A DNA stretch of 64,000 nucleotides. Source: Bradyrhizobium sp. CIAT3101. Lineage in GTDB: Bacteria > Pseudomonadota > Alphaproteobacteria > Rhizobiales > Xanthobacteraceae. This document shows, one piece after another, positions 7,027 to 7,314 of this stretch. Both the position numbers and the translations under genes were made by a program. Below the pieces are notes generated by a model. That model was not told where the DNA came from and did not search any database. It was given only the letters and a program-made list of their open reading frames with translations. Each line of letters opens with the position of its first letter. Position 1 is the first letter of the stretch. Where the stretch lies: assembly GCF_029714945.1 (NCBI RefSeq), contig NZ_CP121634.1:682001-746000 (forward strand), given 5' to 3'.

Positions 7027-7185
7027 GTCGTGACCGTTATTTCCGCTGTCGTCCCGGACAAGCGAAGCGCAGATCCGGGACCCATACCGCGTGATCTATC
7101 TTGAGCCGCGCGGAACGACGTTCTTCGCCAAACGCCTCCCTGGGGTTATGGGTCCCTGTGTCTTTGAAGTCTGTCAGGATGGGTT

Positions 7186-7304
7186 GGGCGGGAAGCCGTT
7201 GGGTCCTTGGCGCTTGACGCCGTGAGCCGGCTCGGCCTCCCGCCCGTTCCATTACCAACCTGAACAGTTGCACGAGGCTGCGGCAACAGACCTCGCATCA
7301 CAGG
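7186..7304 (+). ncRNA. Candidate bridge RNA of the IS110 element (target- and donor-binding loops)
   Basis: Two guide loops can be drawn. Target loop: stem GGGCGGGA (7186-7193) / TCCCGCCC (7238-7245) with inner hairpin GGCG/CGCC (7209-7212, 7218-7221). Its 5' side TGGGTCC (7200-7206) is identical to the left target 7149-7155, and its 3' side GCCGG (7226-7230) is the reverse complement of the right target 8263-8267. Donor loop: hairpin CGAGG/CCTCG (7273-7277, 7291-7295). Its 5' flank AACAGTTGC (7263-7271) is identical to the element's right end 8255-8263, and its 3' flank CACAGG (7299-7304) is the reverse complement of 7155-7160 at the left end. Order and strand sense fit the bridge-RNA model known for IS621. 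RNA ends are not determined. Confidence 0.75.
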
Positions 7305-7314
7305 GACAGGCACC

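Follow-up and report, generated by a model that had tools for sequence, protein, structure and literature searches.

The closest described counterpart of the element analyzed here is IS621. The available portions of PMC11208160 and PMC11208158 describe a bridge RNA encoded upstream of the recombinase gene, with a target loop followed by a donor loop, left guides that copy and right guides that complement their sites, a REP target, a promoter formed at the junction of the ends, and a recombinase with a DEDD motif and a conserved serine. The present element resembles IS621 in each of these respects, the RNA and the junction promoter being predicted. It differs in that its core dinucleotide is CC instead of CT, its left end measures 158 bp compared with 191 bp (PMC11208160, available portion), its right donor guide pairs unbroken where that of IS621 contains a break (PMC11208158, available portion), and no 5′ stem-loop is predicted, a difference that depends on the predicted promoter. 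In the available portion of PMC11208158, the second core base of IS621, T, is called “almost invariant,” a property attributed to the main chain of G63, and CT is the preferred core.

Other described systems share part of this design. The seekRNA element ISEc21 likewise has an upstream noncoding region, a junction promoter, and an RNA matching both target strands, but its target lies in IS3-family transposase genes, whereas that of the present element is a REP-like repeat (PMC11187229, available portion). ISPpu9, ISPpu10, ISPa11, and ISRm19 are IS110 family elements at REP sites of other hosts and with other REPs; they are set beside the present element by their description in the available portion of PMC1525189. 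In IS1111-group elements the RNA lies in the right end, which is too short for this in the present element.

Organization of the element

The window, that is, the whole 64,000-nucleotide stretch of DNA that was analyzed, spans positions 682001 to 746000 of the single 9.37-Mb contig of Bradyrhizobium sp. CIAT3101. The element is flanked by recQ (5074 to 7026) and by an ACC deaminase gene on the minus strand (8313 to 9371), and close relatives of it were found in Bradyrhizobium records. Its left end comprises 158 bp of noncoding DNA, and its right end, core counted, extends 8 bp past the stop codon, as in the IS110 group. The main features are as follows:

7147 to 7156, plus strand: left target flank, with the left core copy CC at 7155 to 7156
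7157 to 8264, plus strand: IS110-group element of 1,108 bp, right core copy included; six copies with the same ends
7315 to 8256, plus strand: IS110 transposase/recombinase of 313 amino acids with a GTG start
8263 to 8270, plus strand: right core copy CC (8263 to 8264) and right target CCGGCCTT, read from the sequence
Window element: target sequence ATGGGTCCCGGCCTT, donor sequence AACAGTTGCCTGTGTC

The transposase scored above the cut-offs of both PF01548 and PF02371, and its residues D11, E53, D95, D98, and S234 align to IS621, giving the DEDD RuvC domain and C-terminal serine domain of the family. IS621 residue numbers were aligned by the D11 motif, the PDB chain carrying two extra residues. 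Among PDB entries, IS621 gave the best match (E value of 1.3e-39), followed by ISCro4 (E value of 2.3e-38), which was compared by its protein alone. The NCBIfam model “IS110 family RNA-guided transposase” returned 197.8 bits against a cut-off of 140.

The neighboring ACC deaminase gene, directly to the right of the element, was identified by TIGR01274 with a score over the cut-off. Beside it lies a divergent gene (9488 to 9952) for an Lrp-like regulator, whose best model scored under its cut-off.

Guide segments in the left end

The left end contains four segments that match the target and the ends of the element, arranged in two loops:

7186 to 7193 with 7238 to 7245, plus strand: 8-bp stem closing the target loop, 5′ side GGGCGGGA and 3′ side TCCCGCCC, from fold and sequence
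7199 to 7207, plus strand: left target guide TTGGGTCCT; 7200 to 7206 match exactly, 7207 (core position 9) can wobble-pair, and 7199 is a mismatch
7223 to 7230, plus strand: right target guide TGAGCCGG, of which 7226 to 7230 pair with the window target
7231 to 7232, plus strand: target-loop handshake bases; C7231 can pair with donor G7 and T7232 is unpaired (layout according to the available portion of PMC11208158)
7259 to 7262 with 7307 to 7310, plus strand: donor-loop stem, CCTG with CAGG, from fold and sequence
7263 to 7271, plus strand: left donor guide AACAGTTGC, identical to the right end of the element (8255 to 8263)
7299 to 7304, plus strand: right donor guide CACAGG, reverse complement of the core CC plus TGTG (7155 to 7160)
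7305 to 7306, plus strand: donor-loop handshake bases GA, complementary to target positions 6 and 7 (TC)

In the target loop, TGGGTCC (7200 to 7206) is a copy of the left target at 7149 to 7155, and GCCGG (7226 to 7230) is the reverse complement of 8263 to 8267. A hairpin lies inside each guide pair, at 7208 to 7222 in the target loop and at 7273 to 7295 in the donor loop. The order of the guides (left target, right target, left donor, right donor) is that of IS621, as is the rule that left guides copy and right guides complement. A sequence-only reading of this DNA had proposed the four matches, the hairpins, and the 8-bp stem, and all of them are present, the matches at the bases it named.

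The four matches together are far from what chance provides. When the left end was shuffled 20,000 times with dinucleotides preserved, no shuffle attained the four match lengths jointly and none kept the four words in order. Taken singly, the left target word was reached in 993 of the 20,000 shuffles, the right target word in 12,718, the left donor word in 22, and the right donor word in 3,361, so that the 5-base right target word is worthless alone. For the copy L001, which is identical but has a right target that differs by one base, none of 5,000 shuffles reached all four matches, the single words being reached in 251, 755, 7, and 888 shuffles, respectively.

The left end also folds better than its own shuffles (z score of −3.36; 0 of 200 as good); the result for the predicted RNA by itself is weaker (z score of −2.27; 5 of 200). 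In the free-energy fold of this RNA, the two target guides are not fully open but form some base pairs with one another. No part of the window matched an Rfam family at gathering thresholds. Taken from one sequence, the target-loop stem has weak significance: for the window copy, 46 of 300 shuffles equaled it, and the test script chose another helix there, with G-U pairs. In relatives, the target stem and hairpin are re-formed with other bases (for example, GGGCGGGA with UCCCGCCC, GGCGGACGAG with CUCGUCCGCC, and GCGGGACGG with CCGUCCCGC), and RNAalifold recovered the target stem with compensatory changes from 10 sequences, from which it did not recover the target hairpin and donor loop as drawn here. 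Stems were read one by one, an alignment of 13 left ends having misplaced the 3′ side of the stem. In each of the 10 rows compared, pairing of the first donor-loop handshake base with target position 7 is possible, once as G-T (G423); pairing of the second base with position 6 is seen in six rows, the exceptions being G391, G337, G564, and G313. In Sinorhizobium, the donor-loop handshake is AT and the target has AT.

Core dinucleotide of the element and its relatives

Searches with the transposase covered 195 genomes of the genus, of which 41 had a match at an E value of ≤1e-40, and 397 genomes of the order, with nine at 1e-75; an alignment of 11 CC-lineage proteins was searched in 337 genomes of the class (two at 1e-90) and in 349 of the phylum (five). 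The genome of the window (G000) is included in each of these counts. Of 141 loci, 123 were usable, and the remaining 18, with partial genes, contig ends, or no recognizable end, were dropped. The usable loci represent 96 distinct insertions, of which 60 belong to the subfamily of the window element (F1; 75 to 100% identity), 11 to F2, and 25 to F3. Only L129, from Pseudomonas, was kept among the matches outside Bradyrhizobium in one homologue search. The F2 and F3 transposases of Bradyrhizobium are approximately 36 to 43% identical to that of the window; their guides have the same order and logic, but their core is CT and their targets differ.

All 60 F1 insertions have CC at both ends, unlike the CT of IS621. 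Among relatives at 43 to 55% identity, CC was found in 20 of 22 loci, the other two, L170 (Rhizobium sp. N621, 44%) and L178 (G366, 43%), having CT. The core is CT at both ends in 11 of 11 F2 insertions and in all 19 F3 insertions with two recognized ends, the remaining six F3 insertions having CT on the left, and the phylum-level matches L201 to L203 and L205 to L209, read by eye, also have CT; L204 shows no clear left end. The patterns that located the ends of the F1 insertions and of the 43 to 55% relatives accept CC or CT only; a previous scan with the second base left free, limited to cores starting with C, gave no right-end core other than CC and CT. At core position 9, the lineage thus does not follow the rule published for IS621.

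The assignment of the core to CC, made already by the sequence-only reading, agrees with the junctions, with the empty sites described below, and with the right-hand guides. It can still be argued that an RNA guides insertion at a different core, one C or a neighboring base being exchanged and the second C merely a conserved flank, since the cut cannot be placed from junctions in runs of C, and 56 of the 60 subfamily insertions carry U in place of C at core position 9 of the left guide. Against this, the junctions in Sinorhizobium and G423 point to targets with a run of exactly two C, with CC at both ends, and both the right target guide and the right donor guide end in GG in the CC lineage where those of the F2 and F3 CT groups have AG. 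A core other than CC is unlikely.

The CC proteins are also distinctive in sequence. The window protein retains EATG (53 to 56), the residues around the position of G63 of IS621, and also N77. R75, N231, and R249 are identical in 19 of 19 CC protein rows and D59 in 18 of 19 (11 of the rows being close kin), whereas among 12 CT rows R75 occurs in two, N231 in one, and R249 and D59 in none; these four residues are candidates for an altered core recognition. In the protein tree, in which eight CC rows are unlabeled and duplicate rows were merged, the CC rows need one label change (support of 83/81, with a long-branch warning).

Copies, target repeat, and empty sites

Six copies of the element were found in this genome: that of the window, three identical to it, one with one difference, and one with two. 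Each of them splits the sequence TATGGGTCCC / GGC(C or G)TTCGCCGGGACGAC, a REP-like repeat. The sequence TGGGTCCCGG occurs 168 times in the genome, compared with 11 occurrences of the pattern read backwards, and among the places listed many copies are paired in opposite orientation. REP elements have been described in Bradyrhizobium (PMC3733652 and PMC5082802, available portions). In G112, G143, G036, and G007 the orthologous site is empty and has the continuous sequence ATGGGTCCCGGC, and insertion is therefore clean, as expected for the IS110 group. At a fifth orthologous locus (L161, in G141), the left half is the same and the right half is different.

The window copy sits in one member of a repeat pair (7075 to 7084 on the minus strand, and 7147 to 7156 / 8265 to 8282) whose members are about 70 bases apart; a pair without an insertion, spaced by about 100 bases, is found at 51316 and 51415 of the window. 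Four of the six copies form two same-orientation pairs, at G000:C1:8939113/8943604 (about 4.5 kb) and 7827153/7835574 (about 8.4 kb). At L190 (G313), a partial left end stands ahead of one copy and breaks off precisely at the left target guide, a layout that resembles insertion of an element into its own guide DNA; the sequence on the right side is not a continuation of the first copy.

A dead relic with fossil guides would be consistent with one relative, the G184 copy (L018/L056/L124), which has an internal stop codon and an off-consensus site that fits its own guides poorly. The six copies of this genome, which have zero to two differences, open frames, and six different sites, make such a state very improbable for the window element. 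They lend good support to the earlier description of the element as functional, to the extent that activity may be inferred from sequence.

Agreement of guides and targets across relatives

Guides were taken by an anchor-free scan, with no assumption on guide position. The scan replaced an anchor-based extraction that had dropped loci because of double matches and had misplaced the guides of some F3 elements by one position. For G337 (left), G564 and G313 (right), F3_TTGCGCCC (both), and F3_TACGCCCC (right), the best match of the scan fell away from the guide.

The F1 insertions share a single left guide, TTGGGTCC, the next base being T in 56 of them and C in the other 4, and their target is essentially the same. 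The insertions matching the left target at guide positions 7199 to 7207 number 1, 59, 60, 59, 58, 58, 59, 60, and 4 of 60, and those matching the right target at target positions 8 to 15 number 60, 60, 59, 59, 42, 35, 34, and 8 of 60. Permutations within F1 reached the actual score in 20,000 of 20,000 cases for the left target and in 4,450 of 20,000 for the right target. With one left guide and one target, F1 shows conservation and not covariation. Elements with the F1 right guide GATCCGG have A at target position 12 in 5 of 6 cases, compared with 10 of 54 for the others (Fisher P = 0.0028), an association of little weight because several of the GATCCGG copies are close kin.

F2, F3, and the relatives from other genera carry different guides and lie at different, matching sites. 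Examples are G419 (left TGGGTCC, right CCGGTC), G423 (TGGATTC), G391 (TGGGCCC), G313 (GTGCACC), and Sinorhizobium medicae (left GGAATC, right CCAGC). Two elements of the genome G190 with similar left ends, L103 and L104, have the guides TACGCCCC and AGCGCCCC, which differ by a two-base change, and each equals its own target. The variety of guides in F3 amounts to natural retargeting through few base changes. The Bradyrhizobium F3 elements (L103, L104, L107, L113, L115, and others) have several left guides in closely related left ends, most of which fit their own target.

For the permutation test, 19 of 21 guide types were used with one row each, the other two having no right target. For the left target, guides matched their own target at 7.05 of 8 positions, compared with 5.53 for other targets, and for the right target at 5.53 of 6, compared with 4.66; none of 100,000 re-pairings was as good in either case. 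In the CC lineage alone (nine types), re-pairings as good numbered 0 of 100,000 on the left and 2,393 of 100,000 on the right, where the signal is weak because nearly all of its targets begin with CCGG; the 10 CT types gave 1 and 5 of 100,000, respectively. These figures overstate independence, as the guide types are related and were treated as independent. L195, from another order of the class and read by eye after the permutation test, has the left target AAGCAATCC, identical to its guide, and the core CC. Its end reads CC-TATG and is matched by its right donor guide, CATAGG, while the CACAGG of the other CC types fits CC-TGTG; G337, with the end CC-TGTA, has one mismatch to its right donor guide.

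The sequence-only reading had named insertion sites that do not covary with the guides as evidence against itself, and the comparison returned relatives with different guides at correspondingly different targets. That the left end is instead a protein-binding DNA end or an RNA regulator of the transposase, with the protein alone picking the REP site and the matches due to chance or to a captured target, could appeal to the targeting of REPs by IS elements of several families (PMC1525189, available portion) and to the reported regulation of the ISPpu9 transposase by small RNAs (PMC8450116, available portion), but it is hardly tenable given that guides change with targets over 19 types, including the two-base change within one genome.

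A bridge RNA for the IS110 recombinase, encoded by the left end, is thus the best full explanation, with a probability of approximately 0.92. The IS621 and NCBIfam matches of the protein and guides that follow insertion sites across relatives both support this reading, which the sequence-only analysis had put forward, and by these features the element would be an RNA-guided IS110 element, a known kind.

Predicted promoter and extent of the RNA

Joining the ends of the element would give the sequence TTGCCT-17-CAGGAT, a candidate promoter for the bridge RNA:

8260 to 8264 joined to 7157: predicted −35 box TTGCCT, present only in the circular form
7175 to 7180, plus strand: predicted −10 box CAGGAT; 15 of the 19 distinct left ends of the subfamily have CATGAT or CATAAT here
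7187 to 7310, plus strand: predicted bridge RNA of about 125 nucleotides, both ends being deduced from the promoter position and the fold

The −10 motif is TATAAT. Over 28 distinct CC left ends, of which 19 are near-identical F1 sequences, the offset of the predicted −10 box (18) gave the best mean match to this motif of 44 offsets (3.64 of 6); in 24 distinct CT left ends the same offset is only second best (2.83 versus 2.92 at offset 8). The pattern of the joined ends was absent from the 195 genomes. Only five nucleotides separate the predicted −10 box from the target-loop stem, which leaves no room for a 5′ stem-loop like that of IS621, so that the RNA would be about 125 nucleotides long. 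A strong hairpin precedes the target loop in 15 of the 24 distinct CT left ends, all of them F3 (15 of 16 distinct F3 left ends). The other nine (F2, L170, L178, and the Pseudomonas locus placed in F3) have no such hairpin, and its absence is therefore not unique to the CC lineage.

In the mechanism that these features suggest, the element would excise as a circle whose joined ends form the promoter, and transcription would start near 7187. The recombinase would bind the RNA, swap strands at the CC dinucleotide, and place the element in the REP-like sequence TGGGTC-CC-GGC with neither loss nor duplication.

On balance, we lean toward a history in which an alphaproteobacterial IS110 lineage switched its core from CT to CC, with both right-hand guides changing to match, and in which its bridge RNA is short and has no 5′ stem-loop. 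What may be novel is this CC-core lineage with a short RNA. No CC-core IS110 lineage was seen in the titles and abstract openings searched, and the variant may already be recorded elsewhere, for instance in ISfinder or in supplements; the phrase “CC core” does not occur in the available portion of PMC11208160.

Bridge RNAs underlie programmable DNA recombination. Natural CC-core elements with naturally retargeted guides, if confirmed, would widen the range of usable sites and make it possible to test directly how the core is recognized; a shorter RNA would also be easier to produce. An RNA-guided element of this kind would also explain its spread through the REP-like repeats of Bradyrhizobium.
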